Source: Limnoperna fortunei
Lineage: Eukaryota; Mollusca; Bivalvia; Mytilida; Modiolidae
Direction of reading: 5' to 3'
Assembly (NCBI GenBank): GCA_944474755.1
Contig: OX104115.1
Span: 59,896,648-59,960,647 of the forward strand
Length of the DNA: 64,000 nucleotides
Shown here: positions 33,301 through 62,298 of the stretch, piece by piece
How positions within the stretch are numbered: position 1 is the stretch's first letter
Layout of the letters: each line of letters opens with the position of its first letter
The notes under the pieces: generated by a model
Databases searched by the model: none
Told to the model about the DNA's origin: nothing
The model's input: only the letters and a program-made list of their open reading frames with translations
Translations under genes and position numbers: made by a program

Positions 33301-36300
33301 AATGACATCACCATTGCTGTGACCTTGGCCTCTTCCTCCTTTTCAGGGTAGATATAAGCCAAAGAAAAAAGCCAATCCTGCCAAACAGACATCTGTAATA
33401 ACGTCCTGAAATAAAACACAAATTTCAACTAATGCTTTCTATTAAAACATTCAATCAAACCTGTCTTAAGCAATCTTTGAAGGGATATTGTATTAAAGGT
33501 CACGTGAGACAGGGGGTTTTTATACACAGGTCATGTTTGTATACCAGTCAACACAGTTATGTTGTTGTCAGCTTGTTAAAAAGTTAATTGTAGACCACTA
33601 TTGTTACTTTTAATTAAGTAAATTAAGTAAAAAGTACCAAAAAAAGTTTATTTAATGTTATAAAGTACAAATGTTCAACAATCATAAGTTTTTTTAAATT
33701 TCTGACTGTATTAATGCATGTCAACTTTACTCCATGGATACTTGACAGATCAACACGAGCTGAAAGTCAAGGGCAATTACAAAAATGGACTTACTCATTG
33801 GTGTGTTTCAGGCAAAGTCAATTCCAGAAGTGCATTTTAATAATCAAACAACAAAAAGATCTGTCAATTTAATTTTGCTTCGAAGAATCATTTGTCACCT
33901 TAAATTACAATTGCATACTGACCTTCGGTTTTCTCTATTGTTATTGCACAGTATAGTTAGATCCGAAAGGAATAATCTCTTTACTTCCATTATCTCTGGG
34001 GTCTGTTTACATTGTCTGATCATTGTAGCTACTACTTTTAGAATTGCTTAAAAAAAAAGATGTTTGTTTGAAAGTTTGATTTAAACAATTTTTTTTTATA
34101 AGAGTTGAAAAACTGAAATACAAAAAGAACAGAATAATGAATGATTTATTTTACCAAATAGTCTGTTTTAATATATTTGCAAATAAAACATTCAAGGCAT
34201 AAATTCAACCCCCCCCCCCCCCCAACAAAAAAAACCAACAAACATACCTAGAATTAAACTTATATATATATACTATAAACCAAACACAAACTTCACTATT
34301 TAATTCATCACTGAAAGAACAAATTTTAAAGAAACACAAATAACGGAATGAAAAATACCAGGACAAAAATTACTCCCTTGGAAAAGTAAAAACAAAACAT
34401 TGTGTGGCCGGGTCAAAACAGTTAATGGGATCCCTGCCCCATACAGAACTCACAAAACAACACAAGTTGGCAGTATTTTGCATTTAAAAAATTTAACATT
34501 GACAGATTAGTTTCAGTTTTACTTGTATATACACAACTTACCAGAATTTTCTATTCTAAAATGAGATTCAGGCTCAACATGTTTATCATGTGTAGTCATT
34601 TCTAAGCTTATTCTCTCTGTAAGTAGCTGTAAATTACAATAGTATATTGTTTAAGACTGACTTGTGAACAATGTGTTTACTACAACATTAAATGAAAAAT
34701 GGATTGTCAGGTCAAAGGTTTTCAGCTGGTACTCTGATTTCCTCCAACAGTGAAAACTGAATGCCTTGATATAGCTGAAATTTGCTGAAAATAGTGTAAA
34801 ACACCATTCAAACAAACTTTTGATGTTATTCTAAGTGGGCTTCACTGAAACAAGATATATTTTTGCATAATATTTTTAAATACAAAACTACACATGAACC
34901 TGTCCCACAAAAAGCAACATAGTGTAAAAACAGACGTTTATATTTACTAGATAAGCTTCGGTTTGCAATCGAGCAAAAACAATTGTTTTTCTTAAAACTG
35001 CATGTACTTTTTGTGGATAATTTTCTTACAATCATATGTGAATATACTGTCCACAATATTTATTTTCCAGAAAGAAAACTAATGGTCTGCGATCTAACTT
35101 ACCTCTTACTTAGGTAGGCAATGTCTGTTATCTAAATTACCTCAAATAAGACAATGTAGGTAGGCAACGTCTAATCTCTTACTTACTTGAAAGTAGGCAA
35201 TGTCTGATATATAACTTACCTCAAATAAGACATGGTAGGTAGGCAATATCTGATCTCGAACTTACCTAAAATAAGACAATGTAGGTAGGCAACGTCTAAT
35301 CTCTTACTTACCTGAAAGTAGGCAATGTCTGATATCTAACTTACCTCAAATAAGACATTGTAGGTAGGCAATATCTGATCTCTTACTTACCTCAAAGTAG
35401 ACAATGTCTGATCTCTAACTTACCTCTAATAAGACATTGTAGGTAGGCAATGTCTAATCTCTTACTTACCTGAAAGTAGGCAATGTCTGATATCTAACTT
35501 ACCTCAAATAAGACATTGTAGGTAGGCAATATCTGATCTCGAACTTACCTCAAGTAGGCAATGTCTGATATCTAACTTACCTCTAATAAGACATTGTAGA
35601 TAGGCAATGTCTGATCTCTAACTTACCTCAAAGTAGGCAATGTCTGATATCTAACTTACCTGAAAGTAGGCAATGTCTGATATCTAACTTACCTCAAATA
35701 AGACATTGTAGGTAGGCAATGTCATTTGTTGGTCATTTAACATCAGTCGTTCACCAATCAGAGAAAACTGATTGTATGGTCCCATTCCATCCTGTTTTCT
35801 CCTTAAAGAGAGATATATTGAATTAATTCAATTACAGAAATGATCAATAAATTTACAACACTTTTATATCAAAGAGCAACCAAAGTTGTAAAATGGTATA
35901 ACTGATTCAATCTCACTAGGTGTGTCTGTTGCAGGCCTGGATTTATACACTTGCAACTTCTCCTTTTCATATATCGTGAGGCAATGGTATATTTGCAGGT
36001 TCCATTGATTCTACTTTTTAGTTTGGTTCAACAATGCCCATTAAATTTATGTGGCAGTTCCATGACACTAGTTTTTTATTTTATTTTGTGATTTTGAAGC
36101 ACTGTTTGTGTTTGGTCCGAGACCTCTGATCATACAAATTTCAAACAGACCTGGACCTGGTAATATTCTAAATAGATCACCCAATTTTTTTATTTTAAGT
36201 ATCAAGATAGAAAAAAGTCACATGTGTATATTATTAAAAAAGAAGTGGCATTTTTTTCTGGAATATAAGTCAATAAGATGTTCTGGAAAAGGTAATAATG

Positions 36301-39300
36301 GGGAAATGCAGGTACTGTGGAATCGTTTTATATGTGTAGTCTAACATTGAAACTAAATTTGTTAAAATTTATAATATGTCTGTACCTTAGTAATCCAGAA
36401 ACATTAGCAATCTACTTACAATAATATAACACCATATTTATAAAATAATGTCTTGACCCATAAGTCCATAAACAAGATCTGTAGATAGGGAATAGTATTT
36501 AATGTTTGATTGCATAAATGGTGTTTAATGCCACTTTCAGCAATATTTCAGGTATATAATGGCGTCCAGTTTTTTATTAATGAGAGGAGCTGAAGGAGTT
36601 GTTGAAAACCACCGACCTTTCGTAGGAAAGTATTCATGTATATACTTGTCATGAAACAACATAAAACAGATAGGTACTTATGTGTAGCTCGCATCAAGAA
36701 GAATCCAAGTAACTTTAATGCCTGTATTCTCAGCTTCTCTGAAGGAGATGCCAACAACTTGAAAACAGTCCTGAAAGAACAAAAATATCAAAATGAACTA
36801 CAATAATATGACTATTATAATATAAAAATATTCTACAAAGGTTTGAGTGTGAAAAACTGAACACAAATAGTCTACAAAAGGTTTAGTGAAAATAAGATGC
36901 AATATGTGTTTCCCTCGTGTTAAGTGTTTCAATGATGGCTATACTATAAAATTTTAAAAGTTTTAGAGATTTTATACAATAATCACAGAAATACTAAATT
37001 TATAATATTTATAAAGTATTCTTCCGTTCATATTTTAATGCATTTGGATATAATGGTGTGGTTTTCTATTTTGTTGTGGATAGTTTTTTTAATTAGCTTT
37101 CCAATTAGTCCGTTTTATAGTGGCCATGTTTCATGTTTTTTATGTATGTAAAACGACTGGATTATCACGAATGTATGCAACAGGATATTATTTGATCAAA
37201 ATGTTTTCAAAAATGTTTGAACCACCTACAGAAATTTTTAACATAAGCACCTCCCTGTTAAATTTTCTTACAGTTAACATCAGTTAACATTAAAGAACAG
37301 TCCTAATATTGTGTTAATCGATCAAATAAGCTAATCAATCCTGAGAACGTGCAGGGAGTTTCCAAACACGAAAAAGTAAACAATAAACTTTTACAAGTTA
37401 GGTAACATTTTCTGATATCACATGAAACCAATAATATCTAGTCATACCTAGCTATTACACTGATTTTGAGACAAATTTGTATGATCAAAATGCGCTTAGA
37501 ATGTGAACAATCACTAACTTGATTCCAGACTTGTGATCAAACGCTGGTACCATAGACATTGGATGTTCTGCCATTAATGCAGTGGTCAGCTGGAGGACAT
37601 CCATCAAATTATCATCCTGTCAAAATAATACAAATACTGGCTACGTTGTTTACCGTTACAATAATAACTGCCGCTACATGATATTTTTCTGACAAAAGCA
37701 ACAGAAAGTTGTATTACAGATCATTACATCAACAGTACTTCTAAATAACAGTAACACATGTGATATAGAGGTTTTATTACAATGTAAATGTGTGAATATT
37801 TAAAATTTAAGAACCTTAGTGAGCAAGCTCACAATACACCACGCCTTCCCATTACATCAAGGTGGTATTTGGTATTTAAATTGGTATATTAAAGTTTCAT
37901 GAAAATCCATAAAGAAATGAAAGCACTATCCAGGCGACAACATTGAATATACATGTACATAAGAGTTGACTAAGTCTCCCCCTCCTAAAAATATGGTCCC
38001 CAAAGATTCTTTAAAATCCATTAAGAAAGGAGAGCGCTATCCAGGCGAAAACAGCATGACACACTGACGGACGGGTCAAACATTATACCCCATCAACTTC
38101 ATTGCGTGGGGTATAAAAATCTTTAAACTATGCATGTGCTTCACATTGTCAGTACACAGAAATTAGTCAAGAAAACAATTATTTCTACTGTTTAATGCTA
38201 AGAATAATATTTTTAGTTGAGAACAAAATGAAAATATAGACAAATAATATTTTATACTCGTCAGAATTGTATGGTCAGAGCAGTACCAACTGTACCAATT
38301 CCTATGCCTATGCAGTACATGTAATTTTTAATTTTTTTTTATTAAACTGAAACAGGTGAAGGACAAACGTAAATGTACTAAGCATACCTCATGTAATGTA
38401 GTAAGATAGTTCAGAATACTCTGTAGCTCATCTTCTTGAATGCCCTGGTCCCTCAGGAGCAACTGTTTCACATACAGTAACATAAAAGATCGTAGTTTGA
38501 CTATTTCATCATAGGTTGGTCTTGGTCCATCTGTAATAGTCATTAACCACATATAATTACCAAGGACAGATCAATGAAGCAACAAAAAATCACTTTAACT
38601 TATTACTTGGAAGATTATGTGTCAGATTTGGACGATAAAAGGGATCTCATTTGTTTAAATGGTGTTTGTCGCCACTTTAAACTTACCCATACCCCTTGGA
38701 TTAATGCCACTCATGTCTTAAGATTGACAGTAATAAAACTTACGCACACCCATTGGATTAATACCACTCCTGTCTTTAGGGTTGACTATCCAGTAATAAA
38801 ACTTACCAACACCCCATGGATTAATGCCACTCCTGTCTTTAGGGTTGGCTACCCACTACCCAGTAATAAAACTTACCAACACCCCATGGATTAATACCAC
38901 TCCTGTCTTTAGGGTTGACTACCCAGTAATAAAACTTACCAACACCCAATGGATTAATGCCACTCCTGTCTTTAGGGTTGACTACCCAGTAATAAAACTT
39001 ACCCACACCCCTTGGATTAATGCCACTCCTGTCTTTAGGGTTGACTACCCAGTAGTAAAACTTACCGACACCCCTTGGATTAATGCTGCTCCTGTCTTTA
39101 GGGTTGACCACCCAGTAATAAAACTTACTAACACCCCTTGGATTAATGCCACTCCTGTCTTTAGGGTTGACCACCCAGTAATAAAACTTACCAACACACC
39201 ATGGATTAATGCCACTCCTGTCTTTAGGGTTGACTACCCAGTAATAAAACTTACCAACACCCCTTGGATTAATGCCACTCCTGTCTTTAGGGTTGACCAC

Positions 39301-42300
39301 CCAGTAATAAAACTTCAGTGTATGCATTGTCTGTAACACAGCACTGACTCTTCTGATGTTGTTATAGATATGGAGATTGCTTATAAAATCTGTTGCTAGG
39401 TAACAATACAGTTTGGTCTGAACCTAAAATACAGATGTTATATAAGAGTAAATATATGCACAAGTCTTTCATCTTAAACCAGTTTACCAAGTTATTTCTG
39501 CTTCTGTTCTATGGATTCAATAAATACATGCATAAGCAAGTCAACTTAAACAAAATTTAAATGAAATAAGGGGGCCTTAGTGGCCGAGTGGTTAAACACA
39601 TATTTTTGATATGACTGTACCCACATTGGTGTAGTGAGGAATTATAGGACAATCCAATGCCCAGTGTGAATACTGAGTGCTCCAGAAAGCATCAATTTAA
39701 ATGCGTTTTGGCAAAAGTCATCACATTATCAACATTCACAATGCATGACTGATTATTCTGTATATTACATTAACGAATATTTAATATGTCATAAAAAAGT
39801 TTAAGGAACTCTCTTTTGAATATTCTTGTGCATCAATGTTTGCTACAGACATCCTTAAGGCATAAATTGTGATGTCAATTCCATGGTATTTCATCCCTGT
39901 CAATATAATAATATAATGGAACTAGCTGTGAGTTTCTGACTATGATCAAGACTTTGTATCCTCTGTGCTGGGTTAAAGAGGATATGATCAGGCAACATAC
40001 CTCAAAAGAACAATGTATCCACAGTGCTGGGTTAAAGAGGATATGATCAGGAAACTTACCTCAACAGAACCATGTATCAACAGGGCTGGGTTAAAGAGGA
40101 TATTATCAGGTAACTTACCTCAACAGAACAATGTGTCCACAGTGCTGGGTTAAAGAGGATATGATCAAACAACTTACCTCAACAGAACAATGTATCCACA
40201 GTGCTGGGTTAAAGAGGATATGATCAAACAACTTACCTCAACAGAACAATGTATCCACAGTGCTGGGTTAAAGAGGATATGATCAAACAACTTACCTCAA
40301 CAGAACAATTTATCCACAGTGCTGGGTTAAAGAGGATATGATCAAACAACTTACCTCAACAGAACAATGTATCCACAGTACTGGGTTAAAGAGGATATGA
40401 TCAAACAACTTACCTCAACAGAACAATTTATCCACAGTGCTGGGTTAAAGAGGATATGATCAAACAACTTACCTCAACAGAACAATGTATCCACAGTGCT
40501 GGGTTAAAGAGGATATGATCAAACAACTTACCTCAACAGAACAATGTATCCACAGTGCTGGGTTAAAGAGGATTATGATCAAACAACTTACCTCAACAGA
40601 ACAATGTATCCACAGTGCTGGGTTAAAGAGGATATTATCAAACAACTTACCTCAACAGAACAATGTATCCACAGTGCTGGGTTAAAGAGGATATGATCAA
40701 ACAACTTACCTCAACAGAACAATGTATCCACAGTGCTGGGTTAAAGAGGATATGATCAAACAACTTACCTCAACAGAACAATGTATCCACAGTGCTGGGT
40801 TAAAGAGGATATTATCAAACAACTTACCTCAACAGAACAATGCATCCACAGTGCTGGGTTAATGAGGATATGATCAAACAACTTACCTCAACAGAACAAT
40901 GTATCCACAGTGCTGGGTTAAAGAGGATATTATCAAACAACTTACCTCAACAGAACAATTTATCCACAGTGCTGGGTTAAAGAGGATATGATCAAACAAC
41001 TTACCTCAACAGAACAATGTATCCACAGTGCTAGGTTAATGAGGATATGATCAAACAACTTACCTCAACAGAACAATGTATCCACAGTACTGGGTTAAAG
41101 AGGATATTATCAAACAACTTACCTCAACAGAACAATGTATCCACATTGCTGGGTTAAAGAGGATATGATCAAACAACTTACCTCAACAGAACAATGTATC
41201 CACAGTGCTGGGTTAAAGAGGATATGATCAAACAACTTACCTCAACAGAACAATGTATCCACAGTGCTGGGTTAAAGAGGATATGATCAAACAACTTACC
41301 TTAACAGAACAATGTATCCACAGTGCTGGGTTAAAGAGGATATGATCAAACAACTTACCTCAACAGAACAATGTATCCATAGTACTGGGTTAAAGAGGAT
41401 ATGATCAAACAACTTACCTCAACAGAACAATGTATCCACAGTGCTGGGTTAAAGAGGATTATGATCAAACAACTTACCTCAACAGAACAATGTATCCACA
41501 GTGCTGGGTTAAAGAGGATATTATCAAACAACTTACCTCAACAGAACAATGTATCCACAGTGCTGGGTTAAAGAGGATATGATCAAACAACTTACCTCAA
41601 CAGAACAATGTATCCACAGTGCTGGGTTAAAGAGGATATGATCAAACAACTGTTTGAGTAACATCCCTCCAGTGGGCAGGTTTACAAGGAACTGAGTAAG
41701 GTCTAGAAAATGTCCTAACACTTTTGGATTCACATGTTCTCTGGATGCCTGAAATTTGAAATTTTAATAAACTTATCTCTCTTAGCAACACATGGCATAT
41801 GATATATATTTTACCATATTATTTCCTGTTTTAACATAAAACTGTATGAAAGTCTTTCAAGATCCCCAATAAATTAATGAATTAATCACACAATGAGAAA
41901 CACAACAGACTTCATAGAATGTTTTTAAATAAATATTAGCAACAGAATTACAAAAATATTCTATTTATCTAATTTTAAGGGATTCCCACCTTTTCTAAGA
42001 AATATCCGATGACAAGGAAACCTTTGTTCTGTATCATCTGTTGCTGTATAGTCACTGAACTCTTCAACAGAATACACAGGATACTCATCAAACTCTCACT
42101 ACAGAAAAAAAATTGGAATGAACAACTGGGAGAGATGTTATAATGATTTCTCATTTCTCTGTAAAATAATAGTCGAGCTACAGCACTTTTTCAAACCATG
42201 ACAGTGATGTTAAACCCTGATTATTTCAGAAAAAAATCTAATTATAACAAGAAAATGTGTATCAGTTAAGAGATCTCATCATGTTGTAACTGTATCAAGT

Positions 42301-45300
42301 TTAATGAAGATGTTAAGTCATCGTCATAAAAATATCTTCACCGCAAAGGTTAACATGAGGTGGGATGAACAAATGAACTAATGGACAAAAGAACAAACAG
42401 GACATAAAAATGCATCCAATTATTAGTTTCTTTTATAGTCAATGCAGTTTATGTATGAATTCCACTATTAGTTTATAGAAAAAATTGCTAACCAGGATGT
42501 GCATGTCATAGATGACATATTTTATTTAGATAAGCTAAAATCGCAATGTACTCAAATTAAACTCAAATCAACAATAAAGCATATAATGGCAGAAGATATG
42601 TCACATTTCTTGAATAATATAACATGTATAATCTAGGTTGATGCAGAACAGTCACTGGTTTTATGGCAAATATCTAATAATTTTAAAACTTGGCTGAGAA
42701 ATGAAAATTAATTCTTAATTCTGGACATGAGCTTACAACTGTGGCAAAATAATTTGAAAATTAAATATGTAAGATATCCATTAAACTGATATCCATAGTT
42801 CTATGGTGGAATGACAATATAATGCAACATCCTTATATTGTGCAATCAGATTGAAGCCCAAGTAACATATAATCTGCTTCTGACTGTCGGAATCCTATGC
42901 CACAAGCCCAAATGTTGTCTGCATTTTTAAGACAAAGTCTGTTAGCAGATCAATCACAGTAACAATTCACACACTATACAGTTGTCATGTATATATGTAA
43001 TTGTCATGTGACCTAAAAAGAGGAAATTAGATAAACAGGAAAGTTGCCTGATTGATATGCATTTATGTAAAATGTGAAGTACAATTCCACATTTACTATG
43101 AAACAGGATATTTACCATACTGTATAATCTACATCTGTCGGTTTATCTTGACCTCTATAAACAAGGTGATCTAACTGACCAAACAGGGGGAATATCACCT
43201 GCAAATTAACAAATAACATGATAAAAAAAAACATCAGTATGGGTGTCAATTTCAACAATTTATGCCCCATTGCTTTAACCTGATACAGTCAACCCTCTTT
43301 ACAATGACCATGTTAGTTTCCTGCCAGCATTGACGTTAAACTGAATTTGCTGTTATAAGGAATTTGTGATTTTGTACTTTGATTATCTCCCTTTTTTATT
43401 TGTGTCTATTGAAAATCGTTCAAGTCTGCTCAATACCCAAGCTTAATAACAATAAATAATAAAATGCTTGTTTTCTTTTTGATATTTAATTAAAATACTT
43501 TTTTCTTTTTTTTTTTAAATTGTAAATTATGATTATTAGACCGATTTTCGGTAATTATCCTATTTCTGATGCCGATTCAGTCTTAATACACTCGTAATTA
43601 AGCCAATAATTTAAAGAAATATTTGAAGATTTAAATATTAAATAGCCTTTGACACCTTTTTAATGAAGCCATATCCCTGTCATCGATTAGTTTTGTAACG
43701 GAAATGTCAGGCACGGTCAATTACGCAATAGCAACAGGTGTTCACATGTGCAATCAACTGTTAGAAAAATCAATTCTCTGGACAAAGATAATTTTTCACA
43801 GGTTAATCTGGATAATTTGTTGTTATAATGGCTTTTTATGCTTGCTTATATTGTTACCAACTTACGCAGTCGGAGTCGGAAACCAAATATGTCCTTGTAT
43901 CGAGCATAAACAACACGTGGACACGCTTGTTAGCACTGAAATCCGGTCAGATGTCGAATATTCCGTTAAATCGAATGTCATTGTAATGAGGGTTCAGTGT
44001 ATTTTAGTGAAGAGGCCAGTGAGCAAATTGAGGGAAAGCCAACCTTGATCGAGAACCTGATAAAGATAACATTTGGTTTTGACTTGATTTTACCCACAGG
44101 TCCTGTTTGTCAGAAGGTCATGTGCATTATGACCAGTCATAATTCTCGTACAAACCTTACAAGGTGCACCTTACAAGTGATTAAAAGCTGTACGCATGTG
44201 ACACTGGGACCAGGTTACTAACTTTCAACTGTAAGTTGATAAGCTAGACTTAAGTTAACAAGAAGTCATGACTTGCGGACTAATCTACATAGTCTTCTAA
44301 TCACCTGTACAGGAAGTCATGATCAGCTGACAAATAAACATAGCCTCCTAATCATCTGTACAGGAAGTCATGATCAACTGCCAATTTACATAGCCTCCTA
44401 ATCACCTGTACAGGAAGTCATGATCAACTGCCAATTTACATAGCCTAACAAGGTTCCTGTTTGCAGCATTTTTATTGGATGACACAATGAGTACAGATGA
44501 GTGCGTGTGAGCACATCTATACAGGTTCATCTGAACCAGAAATCAATCATTAATGGATTGAAGCGCAGTGAAACGTGCAAAAAAGACTAAAACTTTTTAA
44601 TCATGAGTGAAAGATCACACAAGCTTTTACCAAAAGCACATGAAAGTACCTATTTCTTCTGTAAACCATCAACTTTCACACAGCAAAATCCTGTAGACTC
44701 TCCATTGTTTAAGAGTAAATTGTCTCGGACATCCAATCAGAAAACGAGCTTTGTTATGTATCAAGGTTCTTGTTTCAGGCACAAATGAAGCAATGAGTAC
44801 AGATGAGTGCGTGTGAGCTCATCTGTATTGTGTCATCTGTACCAGAAATCGTCCAATTACGGAAGAATTAAAATGTGGTAGTTTCTACACGAATTGTTTT
44901 AGATGTTCATCAAAGTCATCAAAATCAATTATAATGGTAAGAATTGTATAACTATTTTGAATAATACAGTAGTCCCCCTTCGCCAGCGACCACCCGCCTC
45001 AACCGGCCAAAACCCTGATGCATTAACTGTTCCTAACATAAAATTACCTCTCGCGAACGACCACCCCTCAAACGCGACCAGCGACCACGTTTTCTTGACA
45101 CAACAAAGTAAATTCCCCTCACGAACGACCATTTTCACTGACCGAATGTTTATTTTGGAATTCTCGAATGGAACGTGATTTAGTTTTATTATCGTAAACC
45201 AGTTCCGTACAGTTCAACGACCGGTAAATAAAATGTCGAAATCGCGTAAAAGAAAGATGTAAAAATATTACTTTACCTGAACACCTCCTAAGGAATGTAG

Positions 45301-46443: not shown

Positions 46444-46475
<32 letters not shown>

Positions 46476-58400: not shown

Positions 58401-61400
58401 GAGCAGGTGGAAATTACAACACAATCACCAGATTGAATGTAGAACTGGATCATTATTGGAGATACTGTATATGTATGCATGAGATCAGGGCCCAGCGCCA
58501 TAAACATTTTCTTTGCTGAGAATTTTTTTATTCTCAATTTCATGCAATCAAATCTATTCTTTTCCTTGTTGTCATGGTTGATTAAATTCTCATGCTGAGC
58601 AAAACATTTTTACTCAAATAGGTTTTATGGCGCTGGGGCCAGGGTTTATTTAATTACAACACAATCAAAAGATTAGTCATAGAAGGTAAAACTGGATCAT
58701 GAATAGAAGTACTCTACATGTATACATGGGATCGGGGTTTATATAACTTTCAGTATTGTTTACCTGCAATAACGTCATCTGCATCATTCATTAGATTGAG
58801 AACATGTTCTATCAATCCCACCTCTGTACATGCCTGCAAGTTCCTACGACTTTTCTTCAGCATTGCAGTAAACACACTCCAAATCTCTGCCTGTAATAAA
58901 TTATGACATATAATGGTACTCGATTTGTACCTTTAAAGATATTTAGGACAAATCGGCCATTTCATGTTATTTGAACTTATCTTCATACATGTGTTTTATA
59001 ATAATGAAAGGTTGCATTTTTATGGCATCATCACATTTAGGTAAGTGTCCACAATAAGACACGTCAATAAATCTGGGACATTGTTCTGACTTTTACAAAT
59101 GATTGAAATGTTCTGAATCTTACAAGTAGCTGCGCAATACTTTTTGAAGCTGGCATTCCATAAAGAGGAAAAAAACTAATGTCTTTAATAGCCATTTGGA
59201 CATTATATCGCTATAAAACCAAAATGAAATGATCATAATACTATATTTATAGAGGGTAACACAGTTAGTTACTAATCTTTTCTGCGGCCCTCATTGAAGT
59301 TTCATGTAGATAGTTTATAGGAAAAAGTTATACTTTCATCAAACAGTAAAACTGTCATACATGTATTATAAGAACACAAATTCATTACATCATCATCATT
59401 CATTAACAACAATATCAACAATTCAGTATATTGGCATTATACTGACCAAAACTTGTATCAATCCTAAATATGTCTAAGAATGTGGTCTTTAATCTATTCT
59501 TTAAAGATGTGTACATTTTGGGCATAACCTAAAAAATTGGGTAAACTGTTCCAAACATGAGACCCTGAATAACTAATTAATTTCTTGTAAAATTCCTAAT
59601 ATGGTTTTGGAATTTGGAGATTTCATTTGCAGCAAGTCTTAATGCATATGGATATAACTAAATTTATTTACTAAATATTCTGGGGCTTCATTATTCAGGC
59701 GCTTACAAACTTGCAAAAGTTTTTGGTATCTAATTCTTTCTTCAATTTTCATTCAGCCAAGTTTTTTAAAGAGAGGTTTTGATGGTGAAAGTGGGTGTGT
59801 ATTGAGTATTAATCTTATTACAATTTTTTTGCAAATTAAGAATTCGATTTAGTCTATTTTTGCAACAACTACCTGAAACTATACAACAATAATCAAGTAT
59901 GGGGAGGATGAATCCAGAGTAAAAAGTTTTTCTGCATTCCAAATTTAAACACTTTTTTATTTTTTAGAGAAGATAAATACAAGATGAAATTAACTAGTTA
60001 CTGCATTGGACAGAAATACAGTTATATATCTGTGTGTCACACACTGTAATTGGTACTAATAAAAAATCGAGTGTTGTTTGAATGTTTTTGTTATTCATAC
60101 AGAAGATACTTTTCTTCACATTTATTTAAACTACTTTTATTGTTTCTTATAAAACTGACTCATTTGTATACACATTAGATGTGTTTTTTTTTATTCTGGA
60201 TGGAAAAAAATATAAAAATAAAAAATCAACCAAATCATAACCAGGAAGTTATTACATTTACACTACAGGAAAAGAGTCATTATCAAAGGCACTTTTATAG
60301 AAATCTGTAGATGTCAAATGGGTCTAAAATAAAGATATTATAATACCACAGAAATCTTGTCTGTTATATGGGGTACAATTAGAGGGTGCAGTTAAACGTT
60401 TTTTGTCATAATAATCTATTTGAGCATGTTATGTTAATGACATATATATTATCGTTACTGACCTCCAGGTCTAGTTTTTCTTTGTGGTTTTTTATTACAA
60501 ATATGTAAGAATATATTAAGACATTTAAAAGTATTCTTATTAGAAATATATTGTGTCTTTAAAATATCTAATAATAGAGAACAGTTCAGCATACCAACAT
60601 ATCCAGTCCTGTTCAAGTCACATGTTAACACTTTAGTAGAATACTGTACATACCCTGTAGTGCTAATGACACATGTTTTGTTAACACCATATATTAGTAG
60701 TACATGTTTGGTGAATATGTGTACATACATGTACATGTATGTGGTAATCTCATGTGTTGAATTTTGAATTCTCACAGATACCAAGTAGTACATACCTGTA
60801 GTGTTAATGGGCAATGTGTTAAGAGTCTTAACAAGTGCAGTAACATTAACAAAAATGTACATACCTGTAGTGTTAATGGGCAATGTGTTAACAGTCTTAA
60901 CATGTGTAGTCACATTGACATAAATTTACATACCTGTAGTGTTAATGGGCAATGTGTTAACAGTCTTAACATGTGTAGTCACATTGACATAAATGTACAT
61001 ATACCTGTAGTGTTAATGGGCAATGTGTTAACAGTCTTAACATGTGTAGTCACATTGACATAAATGTACATATACCTGTAGTGTTAATGGGCAATGTGTT
61101 AGCAATCTTAACATGGGTAGTCACAATAACATTAATGTACATACCTGTAGTGTTAATGGGCAATGTGTTAACAGTCTTAACATGTGTAGTCACATTGACA
61201 TAAATGTACATATACCTGTAGTGTTAATGGACAATGTGTGAACAGTCTAAACATGCGAAGTCATATTGACATAAATGTACATATACCTGTAGTGTTAATG
61301 GACAATGTGTGAACAGTCTTAACATGTGTAGTCACATCGACATAAATGTACATACCTGTAGTGTTAATGGGCAATGTGTGAACAGTCTTAACATGTGTAG

Positions 61401-62298
61401 TCACATTGACATAAATGTACATATACCTGTAGTGTTAATGGACAATGTGTGAACAGTCTTAACATGTGTAGTTACATTGACATAAATGTACATATACCTG
61501 TAGTGTTAATGGGCAATGTGTGAACAGTCTTAACATATGTAGTCACATTGACATAAATGTACATATACCTGTAGTGTTAATGGACAATGTGTGAACAGTC
61601 TTAACATGTGCAATCACATTGACATAAATGTACATACCTTTAGTGTTAATGGGCAATGTGTTAACAGTCTTAACATGTGCAGTCACATTGACATAAATGT
61701 ATATACCTGTAGTGTTAATGGACAATGTGTTAACAGTCTTAACATGTACAGTAACATTAACATAAATGTACATACCTGTAGTGTTAATGGGCAATGTGTT
61801 AACAGTCTTAACATGTGTAGTCACATTGACATAAATGTACATATACCTGTAGTGTTAATGGGTAATGTGTTAACAATCTTAACATGTGTAGTCACATTGA
61901 CATAAATGTACATATACCTGTAGTGTTAATGGGTAATGTGTTAACAGTCTTAACATGTTAAGTCACATTGACATAAATGTACATACCTGTAGTGTTAATG
62001 GGCAATGTGTTAACAGTCTTAACATGTGCAGTCACATTGACATAAATGTACATACCTGTAGTGTTAATGGGCAATGTGTTAACAGTCTTAACATGTGTAG
62101 TCACATCGACATAAATGTACATACCTGTAGTGTTAATGGGCAATGTGTTAGCAATCTTAACATGTGTAGTCACATTGACATAAATGTACATACCTGTAGT
62201 GTTAATGGGCAATGTGTTAACAGTCTTAACATATGCATGATATTCTGTTCTTCCTGTATAATAAAGTTGTTTTCGATGTCAAACTCTCCACTAACCAG
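12171..62298 (-). CDS. LRBA: Neurobeachin/LRBA-family BEACH protein, 38 internal exons (5' and 3' ends outside window)
   Basis: This is a large scaffold of the BEACH family, known in animals to act in vesicle traffic and as an A-kinase anchor. I assembled 38 exons by hand; they sum to 5,772 nt, or 1,924 codons, with every phase matching and AC...CT on the plus strand at each border. Domains by visible residue: armadillo-like N region 1-143, ConA-like lectin domain about 144-316, DUF4704-type helical region about 317-856, variable linker with a candidate RII-binding helix about 949-966, conserved block 1025-1310, acidic/serine linker 1310-1600, DUF1088-type region about 1610-1850, PH start about 1885. 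Stretches such as [27 protein letters not shown] and FESLCAQ fit LRBA better than NBEA as I remember them. PH remainder, BEACH and WD40 are not in the window. Family membership is certain; LRBA versus NBEA needs a tree. Confidence 0.95.
13193..13333 (-). CDS. LRBA: LRBA-like visible exon 37 (aa 1832-1879)
   Basis: Encodes [39 protein letters not shown]. It links the DUF1088-type region to the PH domain. The donor GTGGGT was chosen because it gives the Gly-Pro-Val junction to the next exon. Confidence 0.92.
13388..13600 (-). mobile_element. Two SINE 3' fragments, minus strand
   Basis: GGGTTTAATGCCACTTTCAG (13392) and GGGCTTTAGTGCCACTTTCA (about 13543) each start a short piece of the reverse-complemented SINE tail with ATATCATGACATCCAGTT or ATATGATGGCCACCAGTT. 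They are separated by ~100 bp and may be a local duplication. Confidence 0.65.
13839..13960 (-). CDS. LRBA: LRBA-like visible exon 36 (aa 1791-1832)
   Basis: Encodes [40 protein letters not shown], the basic WEDD.RRRRR block of the family. The donor is GTAAGT. Confidence 0.96.
15153..15319 (-). CDS. LRBA: LRBA-like visible exon 35 (aa 1736-1791)
   Basis: Encodes [38 protein letters not shown] and PREK. FESLCAQ across the junction is the LRBA-type reading. It ends two bases into Lys before GTAAGT. Confidence 0.96.
15418..15662 (-). mobile_element. tRNA-derived SINE, near full length, minus strand
   Basis: Reverse complement of the same SINE: GGGGACTCGGTGGCTGAGTT head, internal CCAGTTTTCCTACACATGTC AGGGGTTTTCTGTGGTTACT, CCATGATATAGCTGCAAAAT tail. 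It lies in the intron between exons v34 and v35. Confidence 0.8.
15751..15859 (-). CDS. LRBA: LRBA-like visible exon 34 (aa 1699-1735)
   Basis: Encodes [20 protein letters not shown] and [12 protein letters not shown]. It ends in phase 0 before GTATAC. Its first ~30 nt, acceptor and upstream intron are duplicated just upstream (15862-15965). Confidence 0.96.
15862..15965 (-). repeat. Partial duplication of exon 34's 5' end with its acceptor
   Basis: About 70 bp covering the acceptor (TTGTAG) and the first ~30 nt of exon v34 are repeated immediately upstream in transcription order. The copy has an extra T (ATTATTTAGC) and several substitutions, so it would not read in frame. It is probably a dead pseudo-acceptor. 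Confidence 0.85.
16078..16091 (+). repeat. Poly-G tract
   Basis: Run of 14 G in the intron before exon v34; likely length-variable. Confidence 0.9.
16615..16741 (-). CDS. LRBA: LRBA-like visible exon 33 (aa 1657-1699)
   Basis: Encodes [33 protein letters not shown], almost identical to LRBA/NBEA. Codons are split at both ends. Confidence 0.96.
17177..17542 (-). CDS. LRBA: LRBA-like visible exon 32, start of DUF1088-type region (aa 1535-1657)
   Basis: A 366-nt exon. The first two thirds are variable ([13 protein letters not shown]). The last third is nearly invariant: [40 protein letters not shown]. It ends one base into Gly, with a GTAAGT donor. Confidence 0.96.
18044..18415 (+). repeat. 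132-bp tandem repeat, ~2.8 copies
   Basis: Starts at CACCGCGCAATTATGCATGC (18044), 18176 and 18308. Each unit has GAGGTG(A/T)TCATTACTTGTG and TAAGCTTCAAC. The motif CACCGCGCAATTATGCACG is a self-complementary core like those of the foldback elements. Confidence 0.85.
18476..18614. mobile_element. Foldback hairpin element, imperfect
   Basis: ACAATTGATAACTTTAGAT ... GATTTATCAA is mirrored by TTGATAAATCATGATATTAA ... CTAAAGTCCTTAATTGT. Centre CACCTCGGCCAATGGCCTCG. Confidence 0.75.
18859..19014 (-). CDS. LRBA: LRBA-like visible exon 31, acidic linker (aa 1483-1535)
   Basis: A 156-nt exon encoding [20 protein letters not shown] and [15 protein letters not shown], a low-complexity Asp/Glu/Ser/Asn linker. 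Phase matches on both sides. The donor is GTATGG. Confidence 0.75.
19195..20650. repeat. 39-bp intronic minisatellite, about 37 copies
   Basis: The unit CTGTAATTCTCATGTTATAT GGCTGTTTGTGATGTATAT repeats head to tail in the intron between exons v30 and v31. Variation is concentrated at two sites (CATGTT/CATATT, TATAT/TATGT). Two shortened units lie near 20000-20040. A length divisible by three keeps frames open on both strands for over 200 codons; these are not genes. Confidence 0.97.
20964..21038. repeat. Short inverted repeat
   Basis: ATATCAACTCTCTTTATGT and ACATAAAGAGAGTTGATAT are perfect 19-bp arms around ~37 bp containing GCAGCTCGCTTG. Confidence 0.8.
21419..21634 (-). CDS. LRBA: LRBA-like visible exon 30, acidic linker (aa 1411-1483)
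   Basis: A 216-nt exon of extreme composition: about 35 Glu/Asp within its first 40 residues, then [20 protein letters not shown] and INDTTTG. Splice sites (ATTAG acceptor, GTATGA donor) and phases fit its neighbours. I see no homology to the vertebrate linkers, so this exon rests on frame, splice signals and position. Confidence 0.75.
21640..23029. other. Intron 29, AT-rich, nothing recognised
   Basis: No repeats or element ends seen apart from general A/T runs. Confidence 0.55.
23030..23335 (-). CDS. LRBA: LRBA-like visible exon 29, variable linker (aa 1309-1411)
   Basis: A 306-nt exon encoding [20 protein letters not shown], a Ser/Asp/Glu-rich stretch and [12 protein letters not shown]. 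It has no recognisable domain, as expected for the variable middle of LRBA. The 3' border was placed at CAAG|GTTTTA because it is the only nearby GT giving the right phase; this donor is weak, so the border is the least certain in the gene. Confidence 0.75.
24190..24343 (-). CDS. LRBA: LRBA-like visible exon 28 (aa 1258-1309)
   Basis: Encodes [20 protein letters not shown] and [12 protein letters not shown], a conserved hydrophobic block, then a Ser/Thr/Pro tail. It ends one base into Ala. The donor is GTAAAG. Confidence 0.96.
24529..26091 (+). mobile_element. HINE/pearl-type element, family 2, with 165-bp tandem units
   Basis: Left end GAGGCTCCCTGTAATCGCTC ACCTGG. About six units of 165 bp (starts near 24917, 25081, 25246, 25411 and 25576) marked by GGGCAATAACTCCTATAAGG. 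Then a unique tail with repeated GACGACGGACG, ending AGCTCAGGTGAGCT. The left CGCTCACCTGG matches the right-end hairpin arm seen intact at 11038-11066. Confidence 0.75.
26706..27482 (+). mobile_element. HINE/pearl-type element, family 3, with ~167-bp units
   Basis: Left end AGACAGAAATGGCAGGATTT. Three to four units marked by AAACAGGAAGTAGATAACT, one carrying an internal ~72-bp tandem duplication (26941-27082). The right end is CCGCCCGCCCAACTTTCACC followed by hairpin CCGGATTTTCACTCTGTGAAATCCGG (27450-27475). Confidence 0.7.
27770..27877 (-). CDS. LRBA: LRBA-like visible exon 27 (aa 1222-1257)
   Basis: Exactly 36 codons. It encodes [20 protein letters not shown] and LRAVVYRDV, near-identical to the family. 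The donor is GTGAGT. Confidence 0.96.
27975..28212 (+). mobile_element. Short hairpin-ended element, family 5
   Basis: Left end TGTGAGCTAATGCTCACTAG then GATACCCCCTCCTTCAC; one internal unit; right hairpin CCCCCTCTTC-TT-GAAGTGGGGG followed by TATAAC. The left end is nearly the reverse complement of the right arm. Confidence 0.6.
28836..29005 (-). CDS. LRBA: LRBA-like visible exon 26 (aa 1165-1221)
   Basis: Encodes [16 protein letters not shown], the conserved AVRNCLEC block, followed by a lineage-specific Ser/Pro/Gly-rich tail ending MASHPTEK. It ends in phase 0 before GTATGT. Confidence 0.93.
29122..29228 (+). mobile_element. SINE 3' part
   Basis: CTGCAGGTCGGGGTTTTCTC CGGGTGATCCGGCTTCCTCC ... 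CAAACAAACAAAC. Head absent. Confidence 0.75.
29517..29697 (-). CDS. LRBA: LRBA-like visible exon 25 (aa 1105-1165)
   Basis: Encodes [40 protein letters not shown] and [10 protein letters not shown]. The acceptor is ATTTAAG. It ends one base into Val before GTAAGG. A 1.2-kb TIR element starts 59 bp upstream of the acceptor. Confidence 0.96.
29756..30957. mobile_element. 1.2-kb TIR transposon flanked by TA (pogo/Tc1-like, non-autonomous)
   Basis: Perfect 24-bp terminal inverted repeats start TACAGTGAAACTTCTCTAAA and continue CCGG. They are flanked by, or begin with, TA. Multiple subterminal CCGGTTT motifs occur near each end. I see no transposase frame. CAGTG ends and a TA target fit the pogo/Tigger branch; this assignment is inference. 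It lies in the intron just upstream of exon v25. Confidence 0.88.
31113..31282 (+). repeat. 34-bp tandem repeat, 5 copies
   Basis: Unit AAACAAATATTTTTATGTGA CTGTTCGAAGCTAG, imperfect, in the intron between exons v24 and v25. Confidence 0.9.
31403..31556 (-). CDS. LRBA: LRBA-like visible exon 24 (aa 1053-1104)
   Basis: Encodes [32 protein letters not shown] and [23 protein letters not shown] resembles LRBA (KTVMDFVN). It ends in phase 0 before GTAAGA. Confidence 0.96.
31913..32502 (-). CDS. LRBA: LRBA-like visible exon 23, variable linker with AKAP-like helix (aa 857-1053)
   Basis: The largest exon at 590 nt. It opens with [17 protein letters not shown] and [10 protein letters not shown], as in NBEA, passes through a low-conservation Ser/Glu-rich linker, and returns to conserved [18 protein letters not shown] and [16 protein letters not shown]. 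Residues 949-966 ([16 protein letters not shown] region, 32173-32226) form an amphipathic helix where NBEA has its RII-binding site. It ends two bases into Ser. Confidence 0.95.
32503..33212. other. Intron 22, nothing recognised
   Basis: Plain AT-rich intron. Confidence 0.55.
33213..33405 (-). CDS. LRBA: LRBA-like visible exon 22 (aa 792-856)
   Basis: Encodes [38 protein letters not shown] and [10 protein letters not shown], nearly invariant in the family. It ends in phase 0 before a GTAGGC donor. Confidence 0.96.
33923..34046 (-). CDS. LRBA: LRBA-like visible exon 21 (aa 751-792)
   Basis: Encodes [28 protein letters not shown] and NNNRENRR, matching LKV.ATL...MEVRR.FLSDM...SRENRR. The donor is GTCAGT. 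An antisense open frame over the same bases has no independent support. Confidence 0.95.
34209..34224 (+). repeat. Poly-C tract
   Basis: Run of about 15 C in the intron between exons v20 and v21. Confidence 0.85.
34542..34626 (-). CDS. LRBA: LRBA-like visible exon 20 (aa 723-751)
   Basis: Encodes [20 protein letters not shown] and ends IENS, corresponding to ILIEQICTQVIHKQHP...IQNP. It starts in phase 0 and ends one base into Ala. The donor is GTAAGT. Confidence 0.9.
34705..34818 (+). mobile_element. SINE 3' part, diverged
   Basis: GGTACTCTGATTTCCTCCAA, GATATAGCTGAAATTTGCTG and ACACCATTCAAACAAAC mark an older SINE tail in the intron after exon v19. Confidence 0.65.
35095..35692 (-). repeat. 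46/33-bp alternating minisatellite made of exon 19's 3' end plus splice donor, about 15 units
   Basis: Long units hold GACATTGCCTACCTACAATG TCTTATTTGAG|GTAAGT and about 12 intronic bases. Short units lack 13 bp of the exon copy. They alternate as an approximately 79-bp dimer over much of the array. Nearly all donors are intact. Confidence 0.92.
35693..35801 (-). CDS. LRBA: LRBA-like visible exon 19; 3' end amplified in the adjacent intron (aa 686-722)
   Basis: Encodes [20 protein letters not shown] and NVLFE, then GTAAGT. The final ~30 nt plus the donor recur about 15 times in 35095-35692 as alternating 46-bp and 33-bp units. Confidence 0.93.
36519..36632 (-). mobile_element. SINE 3' part, minus strand
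   Basis: GGTGTTTAATGCCACTTTCA GCAATATTTC ... AATGGCGTCCAGTTTTTTAT TAA, the reverse complement of the SINE tail; diverged further right. Confidence 0.7.
36678..36770 (-). CDS. LRBA: LRBA-like visible exon 18 (aa 655-686)
   Basis: Encodes [20 protein letters not shown] and [11 protein letters not shown], matching IYKLLASKSE.IRVQALK. Split Lys codons lie at both ends. The donor is GTACCT, non-consensus at +3 to +5. Confidence 0.93.
37519..37616 (-). CDS. LRBA: LRBA-like visible exon 17 (aa 623-655)
   Basis: Encodes [19 protein letters not shown] and [13 protein letters not shown]. It starts in phase 0 and ends two bases into Lys. [10 protein letters not shown] is the LRBA-type reading of this block. 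Confidence 0.95.
37819..38118 (+). mobile_element. Short hairpin-ended element, family 4
   Basis: Left end GTGAGCAAGCTCACAATACACC. Two internal units of ~120 bp (CATTAAGAAAGGAGAGCGCT ATCCAGGCGA). Right-end hairpin ATACCCCA ... TGGGGTAT (38092-38116). Confidence 0.6.
38388..38530 (-). CDS. LRBA: LRBA-like visible exon 16 (aa 575-622)
   Basis: Encodes [33 protein letters not shown] and TTLHE, one of the best-conserved family segments. It ends in phase 0 before GTATGC. Confidence 0.96.
38690..39254 (-). repeat. 63-bp minisatellite made of exon 15's 3' end plus splice donor, about 9-10 copies, in frame
   Basis: Each unit encodes 21 residues ([16 protein letters not shown] plus R/W/L-G-V-G-K) in the exon frame and ends GTTG|GTAAGT. 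Seven units next to the exon read through without a stop. The three distal units contain indels and substitutions. All retain GTAAG. Unit variation includes WCVG and RGVS at the donor-proximal residues. Confidence 0.94.
39255..39423 (-). CDS. LRBA: LRBA-like visible exon 15; 3' end amplified in frame in the adjacent intron (aa 519-575)
   Basis: Encodes [33 protein letters not shown] and [13 protein letters not shown], ending one base into the Asp codon that exon 16 completes (GVDGPRP). A second AG six bases downstream (39417) could remove two residues (VQ). The last 61 nt and the donor recur as 63-bp units to about 38690. Confidence 0.94.
39572..39720 (+). mobile_element. tRNA-headed SINE fragment of a different body
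   Basis: GGGGGCCTTAGTGGCCGAGT GGTTAAACAC head with a different downstream sequence (AATCCAATGCCCAGTGTGAA). Not a functional tRNA: no anticodon arm or acceptor pairing is apparent. Confidence 0.55.
39945..41595 (-). repeat. 59-bp minisatellite made of exon 14's 3' end plus splice donor, about 28 copies
   Basis: On the minus strand each unit is GTAAGTTGTTTGATCATATC ... TGTTCTGTTGAG, that is, the donor followed by a copy of the last ~55 exon bases. Units are nearly identical. A few have 60 bp (GATTATGATC), and the outermost have diverged (CAGGCAACATAC). Because 59 is not a multiple of three, distal donors shift the frame unless three units are included. Confidence 0.94.
41596..41748 (-). CDS. 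LRBA: LRBA-like visible exon 14; 3' end amplified in the adjacent intron (aa 468-518)
   Basis: Exactly 51 codons, phase 0 to 0. It encodes [18 protein letters not shown] and [18 protein letters not shown], ending CSVE before GTAAGT. The 3'-most ~55 nt and the donor recur about 28 times as 59-bp units at 39945-41595. The coordinates given use the donor nearest to the exon body; which donor is used in RNA cannot be told from sequence. Confidence 0.93.
41990..42098 (-). CDS. LRBA: LRBA-like visible exon 13 (aa 431-467)
   Basis: Encodes [17 protein letters not shown] and [13 protein letters not shown], the conserved KGFLVIGY block. It ends in phase 0 before a GTGGGA donor, which is non-optimal at +3 and +6. 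Confidence 0.94.
42099..43115. other. Intron 12, nothing recognised
   Basis: AT-rich; a GCAAAGGTTAACATGAGGTG-type tail of an old element may be present near 42340 but could not be delimited. Confidence 0.5.
43116..43198 (-). CDS. LRBA: LRBA-like visible exon 12 (aa 404-431)
   Basis: Encodes [16 protein letters not shown] and ends in DYTVC, whose Cys codon is split with the next exon. It corresponds to VLFPLFAQLD of the vertebrate proteins. Confidence 0.93.
43284..44001. mobile_element. ~720-bp TIR transposon flanked by TA
   Basis: Left TACAGTCAACCCTCTTTACA ATGAC and right (reverse complement) TACACTGAACCCTCATTACA ATGAC form imperfect ~25-bp inverted repeats. No recognisable transposase; an open frame from 43704 inside it has no known motif. 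Confidence 0.8.
44279..44452 (+). repeat. ~50-bp tandem repeat, 3 copies
   Basis: CTAATCACCTGTACAGGAAG TCATGATCAACTGCCAATTT ACATAGCCTC three times, the first diverged. Confidence 0.88.
44455..44855 (+). repeat. Dispersed duplicate pair with ATGAGTACAGATGAGTGCGT
   Basis: GGTTCCTGTTTGCAGC...ACAATGAGTACAGATGAGTG (44455-44550) recurs as GGTTCTTGTTTCAGGC...GCAATGAGTACAGATGAGTG (44763-44855), both ending ACCAGAAATC. About 215 bp of unrelated sequence lies between. Confidence 0.7.
44965..45262 (+). mobile_element. Truncated 5' end of a TIR transposon
   Basis: TACAGTAGTCCCCCTTCGCC begins a GC-richer block with three CGACCACCCG/CGACCATTTT-type subterminal repeats. It ends with a short frame, MSKSRKRKM then stop (45233-45262), which could be a transposase start. 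No matching right end was found. Confidence 0.55.
45277..45339 (-). CDS. LRBA: LRBA-like visible exon 11 (aa 383-403)
   Basis: Exactly 21 codons encoding [19 protein letters not shown], a family hallmark. A truncated TA-flanked transposon end (44965-45262) lies only about 14 bp beyond its donor-side border. Confidence 0.95.
45432..45566 (+). mobile_element. SINE 3' part
   Basis: CAGTTTTCCTACCGCAGGTC GGGGGTTTTCTCCGGGTACT ... AAGTGGCATTAAACACCATC then CAAACAAACAAAC. Among the best-preserved tails in the window. Confidence 0.8.
46291..46431 (-). CDS. LRBA: LRBA-like visible exon 10 (aa 336-382)
   Basis: Exactly 47 codons. It encodes [22 protein letters not shown] and FVHVQHALM, matching the family LYDGKL...[11 protein letters not shown] block. 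The donor is GTGAGT. Confidence 0.95.
46444..46472 (+). repeat. (ATCA)n microsatellite
   Basis: About seven ATCA units directly upstream of exon v10's acceptor. Confidence 0.9.
46751..46938 (+). mobile_element. Single-unit copy of family-3 element
   Basis: Has the same two ends as the element at 26706 (AGACAGAAATGGCCGGATTT at left, GATTTTCACTCGGTGAAATC at right) but only one internal unit. This defines the minimal element. GGCCGGATTT at left is complementary to the right hairpin arm. Confidence 0.75.
47266..47322 (-). CDS. LRBA: LRBA-like visible exon 9 (aa 317-335)
   Basis: A micro-exon of 19 codons, phase 0 to 0, encoding [18 protein letters not shown], aligned with the FKFK.ESD segment of the family. 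The acceptor is in TATATAGAG; using the first AG keeps the frame. The donor is GTAAGT. It is less conserved than its neighbours, but phase and position fit. Confidence 0.87.
47807..47953 (-). CDS. LRBA: LRBA-like visible exon 8, end of ConA-like domain (aa 268-316)
   Basis: Exactly 49 codons. It encodes [28 protein letters not shown] and FQLGPSYK, the closing strands of the ConA-like domain. A GTAACA donor follows. Confidence 0.96.
48137..48292. mobile_element. MITE with GCCATAAA inverted ends, copy 2 (diverged)
   Basis: Shares CATGCTGAGCAAAACATTTT TACTCA and the left end CTCCAGTGCCATAAACATG with the copy at 58488. The right end is degraded (TTTTTATGGTTCTCGGGTC). Confidence 0.75.
48327..48446 (-). 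CDS. LRBA: LRBA-like visible exon 7, ConA-like domain (aa 228-267)
   Basis: Exactly 40 codons, phase 0 to 0. It encodes [20 protein letters not shown] and a VDGQL turn, ending VNTND. The family-typical strands WYM.TIVHIYNRW and YVNG.L are recognisable. Confidence 0.96.
49064..49925 (+). mobile_element. HINE/pearl-type element, family 1, old diverged copy c
   Basis: Begins TGTCACAGAAAAATGTCTTG TCTGCATT, holds four to five degenerate units (GAGGTCAAGGTCAG, CTTTTCATCAGCAACCTATA) and ends with the family-1 tail (CTGACTGACTGACAAGTACT). The terminal hairpin is eroded. It lies in the intron after exon v6. Confidence 0.65.
49926..52534. other. Intron 6, distal part, nothing recognised
   Basis: About 2.6 kb of AT-rich intron with no element ends or conserved frames that I could support. 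Confidence 0.55.
52535..52661 (-). CDS. LRBA: LRBA-like visible exon 6, ConA-like domain (aa 185-227)
   Basis: Encodes [17 protein letters not shown] and [13 protein letters not shown], near-identical to family members. One base completes the Cys codon from exon 5. It ends in phase 0 at a GTAAGT donor. A long intron of about 4 kb follows. Confidence 0.96.
52662..54063. other. Intron 5, nothing recognised
   Basis: AT-rich; the GATGAGATG-type words near 53470 and 53590 suggest an old duplication, too diverged to define. Confidence 0.5.
54064..54188 (-). CDS. LRBA: LRBA-like visible exon 5, start of ConA-like lectin domain (aa 144-185)
   Basis: Encodes [21 protein letters not shown] and EREQPYLYC, the first beta strands of the concanavalin A-like domain of NBEA/LRBA. 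It starts in phase 0 and ends two bases into the Cys codon. Confidence 0.96.
54304..54561 (+). mobile_element. tRNA-derived SINE, near full length
   Basis: The head GGGCCTCGGTGGCCATGTGT TTAAGG resembles a tRNA with A box, and GGTTTGAGTCTC a B box. The body has GACAAGGATTGCCAGTTTTC and CCCCAATAAACACTGGATGC; the tail ATTGCTGAAAAGTGGCATTA AAC ends in CAAACAAACA. From memory this resembles molluscan V-SINE/RUDI-type SINEs; not verified. Confidence 0.8.
55187..55282 (-). CDS. LRBA: LRBA-like visible exon 4 (aa 112-143)
   Basis: Exactly 32 codons, phase 0 to 0. It encodes [20 protein letters not shown], the conserved link into the lectin-like domain. The donor is GTAAGT. Confidence 0.95.
55590..55690 (-). 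CDS. LRBA: LRBA-like visible exon 3 (aa 78-111)
   Basis: Encodes [20 protein letters not shown], nearly identical to the vertebrate family consensus. It completes the GAC codon begun by exon 2 and ends in phase 0 (KDDKW) before a GTATGA donor. Confidence 0.95.
55738..56168 (+). mobile_element. Decayed hairpin-ended element with two ~220-bp units
   Basis: Two copies of GTGACCTTGACCTTTGACAG (one with CATGACC) lie about 200 bp apart. Left ATTACTCCCACTT and right AAGTGAGGGAATA are approximately complementary. It resembles the other hairpin-ended elements but is eroded. Confidence 0.45.
56170..57600. other. Intron 2, central part, nothing recognised
   Basis: No exon or element boundary recognised. 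Confidence 0.5.
57600..58420 (+). repeat. ~225-bp degenerate tandem repeat, 3-4 units
   Basis: Units recur with landmarks AGCAACCAAATAAGAT (57647), AGCAGTCAAATAAAAT, ATCAGCAAAATAAGAT and GGCAGTTAAATAAG, each followed by AACACTTGCAGGACAT. Highly diverged. Confidence 0.65.
58488..58640. mobile_element. MITE with GCCATAAA inverted ends, copy 1
   Basis: Left GGGCCCAGCGCCATAAAC and right TTTATGGCGCTGGGGCC are inverted repeats around an AT-rich core with CATGCTGAGCAAAACATTTT. It sits between two flanking direct repeats of ~80 bp (58411-58487 and 58653-58742). Confidence 0.8.
58764..58890 (-). CDS. LRBA: LRBA-like visible exon 2 (aa 36-78)
   Basis: Starts in phase 0, ends with one extra base (GCA G). 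It encodes [14 protein letters not shown] and [13 protein letters not shown], a strongly conserved part of the armadillo-like N region. The donor is GTAAAC, a slightly weak site. Confidence 0.94.
59480..59960 (-). pseudogene. Fossil LINE reverse-transcriptase C-terminal fragment (CR1/L2/Jockey-like)
   Basis: Minus-strand translation gives [16 protein letters not shown], then NRILNLQKN, and after frame breaks [16 protein letters not shown] and NNEAPEYLV. This is the usual order of the LINE RT thumb region (ILP.LDYC, then L.W.P.E.RI.YK, then LN..AP.YL). Stops and shifts make it non-functional. The exact clade cannot be set from this piece. Confidence 0.8.
60790..62193 (-). repeat. 69-71 bp minisatellite made of exon 1's 3' end plus splice donor, about 21 copies
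   Basis: Each unit, read on the minus strand, holds the exon end (AAGACTGTTAACACATTGCC ... ACACTACAG), the donor GTATGT and about 30 intronic bases. The array is continuous with exon v1. Units of 69 bp alternate irregularly with 71-bp units that carry an extra AT. The exon frame meets a TGA shortly after the donor, so use of distal donors would normally truncate. Open frames here are by-products. Confidence 0.93.
62194..62298 (-). CDS. LRBA: LRBA-like visible exon 1 (aa 1-35)
   Basis: Phase 0 to 0. It encodes [15 protein letters not shown] and ends THCPLTLQ, matching the family N-terminal block just after the conserved MKFAVL...VGEVSNRD segment, which is not found up to 64000. The donor is GTATGT. 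The last ~40 nt plus the donor are repeated about 21 times downstream in the intron (60790-62193). Confidence 0.93.

Follow-up and report, generated by a model that had tools for sequence, protein, structure and literature searches.

Tandem repeats that cross the boundary between an exon and the following intron have been described at single loci. The human CBS gene carries a 31-bp VNTR, c.1444_1467+7(16_21), that spans an exon/intron donor (PMC2630376). Its unit resembles those described here in consisting of an exon tail, the donor, and a short piece of intron (the name implies 24 exonic plus 7 intronic bases), but it is one locus in one gene, whereas in the bivalve Limnoperna fortunei a single gene has four such arrays and further genes show the same arrangement. 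A second human CBS variant, 844_845ins68, is a tandem duplication of an intron/exon junction at which one site is strongly favored; it differs from the donor arrays in lying at the intron 7/exon 8 junction and in having two copies. Intron gain through tandem duplication of AGGT-containing segments has been reviewed (the Rogers model, ATP2A1, and the fission yeast 24-bp repeats; PMC4974935) and shares with the present arrays tandem copies carrying AG/GT (a slash marks the splice boundary), but it places a new intron within an exon, whereas here the intron carries on past each array. Ordinary intronic minisatellites have the same unit length, head-to-tail growth, and graded divergence, but differ in position, the first copy here being the end of a coding exon. 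To our knowledge, the splice donor is not a known minisatellite seed. The original prediction that such repeats belong to no known class has to be narrowed: the kind is known singly, from human CBS, whereas a thin literature search (subscription papers were mostly outside its reach) did not find donor-spanning minisatellites described as a genome-wide class. On this thin evidence, what is new is their recurrence across a genome.

The four arrays lie in a stretch of 64,000 nucleotides, here called the window (C5:59,896,648-59,960,647), of a genome of which 1,335,373,924 bases in 285 contigs were searched. Joined exon peptides of a minus-strand gene in the window matched the Pfam families PF15787 (E 3.2e-103) and PF20425 (3.4e-6), and further exons of the same gene matched PF06469 (2.2e-19) and, slightly below the Pfam cut-off, PF14844 (1.6e-5). 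By these matches of its predicted peptides, the gene is a member of the neurobeachin family. A PDB search with the joined neurobeachin exons and an Rfam search at the gathering threshold each gave no match. Reading frames near -97 to -99 kb, which by their motifs look BEACH-like and part of the same gene, indicate that it extends well past the window. We modeled 25 exons, within the window only, from reading frame and splice consensus. Boundaries that depart from the consensus in this model are three donors (36664, 22944, and 12172) and one acceptor (21650); in the list of exon ends the acceptor of v14 is misplaced by one base, and short exons are absent. Four of the minus-strand exons are central here: v1 (62194..62298), which has a consensus acceptor and donor and a peptide inside the PF20425 match; v14 (41596..41748), with a peptide inside the PF15787 match; v15 (39255..39423), called from the exon model and the Pfam search of exon peptides; and v19 (35693..35801), called from the splice-consensus model.

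A tandem array is present at each of these exons, and in all four (4/4) its unit is the exon 3' tail plus the splice donor, as in the CBS VNTR. When the arrays are cut at their donors, copy 1 is the exon's own 3' end and the donor is kept in nearly all copies. Donor-spanning arrays with retained donors had been predicted at exactly these exons and in this orientation, and both points are borne out. The v1 array (60788..62193, minus strand) begins at the donor 62194/62193, and its 69- and 71-bp units, each with ~28-30 intronic bases, run to about 60788. Its 21 donors comprise that of the exon and 20 intronic ones (10 GTATGT and 10 GTATAT); GT is intact in 21/21, and CAG precedes every donor except one, which follows AAG. 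The v14 array (39955..41595, minus; donor 41596/41595) is built of 59-bp units made up of 54 exon and 5 intron bases (GTAAG), with 25 units of 59 bp and 2 of 60 bp; its donors are GTAAGT in 27/28 copies and GTATGT in 1/28. The v15 array (38679..39254, minus; donor 39255/39254) has in-frame 63-bp units (7 of 63, 1 of 70, and 1 of 57 bp) and GTAAGT in 10/10 copies. In the v19 array (35103..35692, minus; donor 35693/35692), 46-bp units are accompanied by 33-bp derivatives without 13 of the bases (7 of 46, 6 of 33, and 1 of 32 bp), each unit having ~15-17 intronic bases; the donors are GTAAGT in 14/15 copies and GTAATT in 1/15, and an extra GTAAGT lies immediately past the array at 35102. The expectation that units contain only a few intronic bases thus fits v14 and v15, but not v1 or v19. 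Exons v14 and v15 are consecutive, and from the coordinates their arrays fill ~76% and ~80%, respectively, of the introns that follow.

The copies diverge by ~2% at v14 and by ~5% or more at v15 and v19, according to our own ratios, and the arrays are therefore of different ages. To compare loci, one unit was taken from each of 15 arrays and the donor and last three bases were removed; only 2/105 pairs beat 200 shuffles, each by one point. Unrelated units and differing divergence together show that the four amplification events were independent, as had been proposed. The absence of sequence shared between loci also leads us to reject an introner-like or other mobile element. Intron gain by AGGT duplication, in which an exonic segment is copied and an intron forms between the copies, does not describe these arrays either: ~5-30 bases of each unit are intronic, and the intron goes on past the array. 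In having head-to-tail units of ~10-100 bp, the arrays are minisatellites. That they were created by the assembly is scarcely credible, given that the contigs are long (115 Mb for C1) relative to arrays of ~0.6-1.7 kb, that divergence among the copies is graded, and that the flanks are clean at several genes.

When the 25 exons were scanned at both ends, the four donors and one acceptor showed strong local duplication. The acceptor case is a two-copy 72-bp duplication (15826..15966, minus strand) that takes in the pyrimidine tract, the AG, and the first part of the exon (score 78 versus a shuffle maximum of 25) at the exon 15751..15859 (minus), which was called from a DUF1088 match and the exon-end scan. 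It was not part of the original prediction and is a mirror image of the donor arrays without amplification; among the known systems it resembles CBS 844_845ins68. Such a duplication in the same gene, together with the numerous other arrays in 264 kb of sequence and in a random 50 kb, is what would be expected if arrays arose at one rate everywhere in a minisatellite-rich genome and those at donors survived because the first donor works, in which case donors would not be special. The window itself points the other way, with arrays at 4/25 donors versus 0/25 acceptors (Fisher p = 0.055). The window holds nine arrays with periods of 20-100 (v1 entered by its 69-bp period), and four of them are at donors; the corresponding p = 2.5e-4 assumes a donor target of 25 x 100 bases and is a post hoc figure. 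The genome-wide motif comparison described below is a better test of more-than-chance occurrence than these window p values.

For the arrays at 31114-31283, 44282-44446, 19206-20649, -83070, -40441, and -37368 (window coordinates), inspection by eye found no exon boundary in the unit; two further arrays of the window are at 21550 and 52347. The array at 19206-20649 has 37 copies of a 39-bp unit and long open frames on both strands. A 146-bp tandem repeat occurs in the window at 3437-4123 and 8111-10559 and again at L023:3385-4133, and by eye a similar sequence is present in L046. At a two-copy repeat in L025 whose consensus contains GTAAGT, no exon was seen by eye.

A genome-wide count of donor-spanning versus acceptor-spanning arrays had been suggested as a check, and we approached it by searching for a motif three times in tandem at minisatellite spacing, with the same pattern read backwards as control. 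The donor motif AGGTAAGT, its copies 37-67 bp apart, gave 3567 + 2502 = 6069 matches in the whole genome versus 839 + 1647 = 2486 for its reverse, a total excess of 2.4-fold only; matches overlap inside arrays and pile up in large arrays, for donor and control alike. Counted as distinct arrays among the matches listed, the donor motif gave 11 in C1:0-10.23 Mb and the reversed motif 14 in 354.4 Mb, an array rate ratio of 25-27, the lower value being obtained when a telomere-like array (C1:328,578) is set aside. C1:0-10 Mb appears denser than the genome average. By rough inference the genome would hold ~670 such arrays (6069 matches at ~9 per array) or ~1,400 (at the C1 density). The 10-base donor motif CAGGTAAGTT gave 242 + 241 = 483 matches versus 10 + 15 = 25 reversed, in the whole genome; both figures count matches. 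This match ratio of 19 overstates the array ratio because the arrays at C4:59.66 Mb and C7:15.60 Mb supply most of the listed places. Among the matches listed there were 13 distinct CAGGTAAGTT arrays in ~660 Mb (C1 to C7:15.6 Mb). The background frequencies of the two 8-mers are similar: with the four arrays set aside, 264 kb contain 8 donor and 10 reversed occurrences.

No such excess was seen for the acceptor 8-mer TTTTACAG, with 1342 + 1418 = 2760 triples versus 1053 + 1753 = 2806 reversed. This is a weak test because the 8-mer is generally common (22 in 264 kb) and its listed places all fall in one array near C1:1.55 Mb; as a weak marker of true acceptors, it gives counts that are compatible with a moderate acceptor excess. 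Note that arrays whose copied donors are intact are easier to find and that exons beside AGGTAAGT arrays are partly expected, because the search motif is itself the donor consensus. The comparison with the control is free of this ascertainment, but it shows only that donor-type sequence is commoner in arrays than its mirror image. Among the 14 control arrays, flanks were read for open frames at 5; where the flank extended past the array, open-frame runs of 11-64 residues were found, and flank open-frame length gave no clean separation of these five arrays from exons. One control array, found with the TGAATGGA motif at G000:C1:88954515-88955373, contains GGATG/GTAAGT and is possibly another donor array. 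Since tandem triples are more numerous for the donor motif than for its reverse although the two motifs are about equally frequent, we consider a uniform array rate with survival at donors rather unlikely as the whole explanation.

The same anatomy recurs at other genes. Of the 11 listed C1 arrays, all but the telomere-like one were examined in their 5' flanks, and in 9/10 an apparent coding exon has its 3' end where the array starts or no more than one unit away. Pfam or PDB supports the flank exon at 6/10: IFT172 at L028 (PDB 8bd7, 4.6e-12), DUF547 at L031 (7.2e-10), DMAP1 at L032 (7.7e-8), where the exon's own donor is GTTAGT and the first GTAAGT lies 39 bases further on, otoferlin at L035 (9.1e-5), a Pkinase match at L037 (1.9e-15), and STK11 as the top match of L036 joined with L037 (9.8e-35). 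At L029, L030, and L034 the exon was called from reading frame and acceptor alone, with no convincing database match, and the 5' flank of L033 gave no exon. The exons at L036 and L037 correspond to different parts of a single protein and are separated by 6-7 kb on the same strand, which indicates an STK11-like gene with two donor arrays. These two arrays are at C1:6.84 Mb, and the intron after L036 also holds an unrelated minisatellite (L045). The 3' flank of L029 (L039) contains an apparent next exon with a second donor array, A/GTAAGTT, of seven full 52-bp copies. Several donor arrays per gene are therefore not unique to the neurobeachin gene.

At v14 and v15 the breakpoint had been placed at a short match between donor and exon. 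At v15 the match is exact, since AAGTTT occurs at exon -61 and at intron +3, 63 bp apart, which is the array period. By eye the match is weak at v14 (3 bp, AGT), is 3 bp (GAC) at v19, and is ~0-1 bp at L037/L046 and L034/L043. Given the last two, both on C1, we reject microhomology as the general cause and retain it as a contributor only.

We propose that a tandem duplication of ~30-70 bp spanning the exon 3' end and the 5' splice site would be followed by growth into the intron through slippage or unequal exchange. The true exon, donor included, would be undisturbed by the duplication, and a spare exon tail and donor would end up in the intron. If the most upstream donor, the one that ends the true exon, is normally used, the mRNA would be unchanged and the duplication tolerated. 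Tolerance alone leaves the excess over anonymous sequence unexplained, and we therefore infer a donor-linked bias in birth or retention. Donors may be hot spots for the first duplication, either because the donor supplies one side of a microhomology or because breaks are tied to splicing and transcription; alternatively, extra copies may be retained because spare U1 sites are harmless or aid exon definition. We give a probability of about 0.58 to the reading that donor-side minisatellites reflect tolerated duplication plus a donor-linked birth bias.

Reading beyond the first donor bears on donor usage. Stops are met at 62172 (v1), 41535 (v14), and 35686 (v19), in the first or second copy, so that the protein would be truncated in three of four cases if later donors were used. 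The suggestion of regulated exon length is therefore rejected for v1, v14, and v19 but may hold for v15, where read-through is open to 38841 and spans six further in-phase donors, that is, six in-frame 21-residue copies. The resulting 194-codon open frame (38841-39423) comprises exon v15 and the first six copies, and 21-residue in-frame repeats could be made if later donors were used.

Could the extra donors have been selected as places for U1 to dock, making exon definition stronger or shielding long introns, with GTAAGT arrays retained for that reason? In v14, v15, and v19 combined, donor-core changes number 2/265 cells versus 92/~2460-2554 elsewhere (p = 0.004-0.005, from hand-entered counts), a deficit that is consistent with such selection. 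By variable sites, however, the figures are 2/15 versus 49/153 (p = 0.11), array copies are not independent, and v1 has two donor types in equal number. A site-level p = 0.004 was discarded because cutting units at GTAAG favors intact donors, and strong purifying selection on the copied donors is not established. Selected redundancy therefore strikes us as improbable. A recursive-splicing ladder is a far fainter prospect. There the AG/GT junctions would be zero-length-exon sites, the units would be removed stepwise, and the mRNA would be unchanged. The units of v1, v14, and v19 start with GT and mostly end in AG, and some v19 copies carry CTACTTTCAG/GTAAGT, but duplication of any AG/GT donor automatically yields GT...AG, the v15 units mostly end in TTG or similar, and at 33-71 nt the units would make very short introns.

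Tolerated duplication with a donor-linked bias thus remains our preferred reading, and the data suggest that splice donors are preferred places for such repeats to arise or persist. A wider proposition, which we put forward tentatively and at somewhat less than even odds, is that donors are systematic sites of array birth or retention, and that hundreds of them carry arrays that lengthen introns, homogenize with the exon end, and offer spare U1 sites, through an evolutionary process linked to donors rather than acceptors. How minisatellites originate has long been asked; a class of them linked to donors would connect the birth of arrays with splicing or transcription and would give an exon-anchored route to intron lengthening. 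The arrays are also natural multi-donor constructs for the choice of the spliceosome among identical 5' splice sites, and for annotation they carry a warning that exon ends may recur many times within the next intron.
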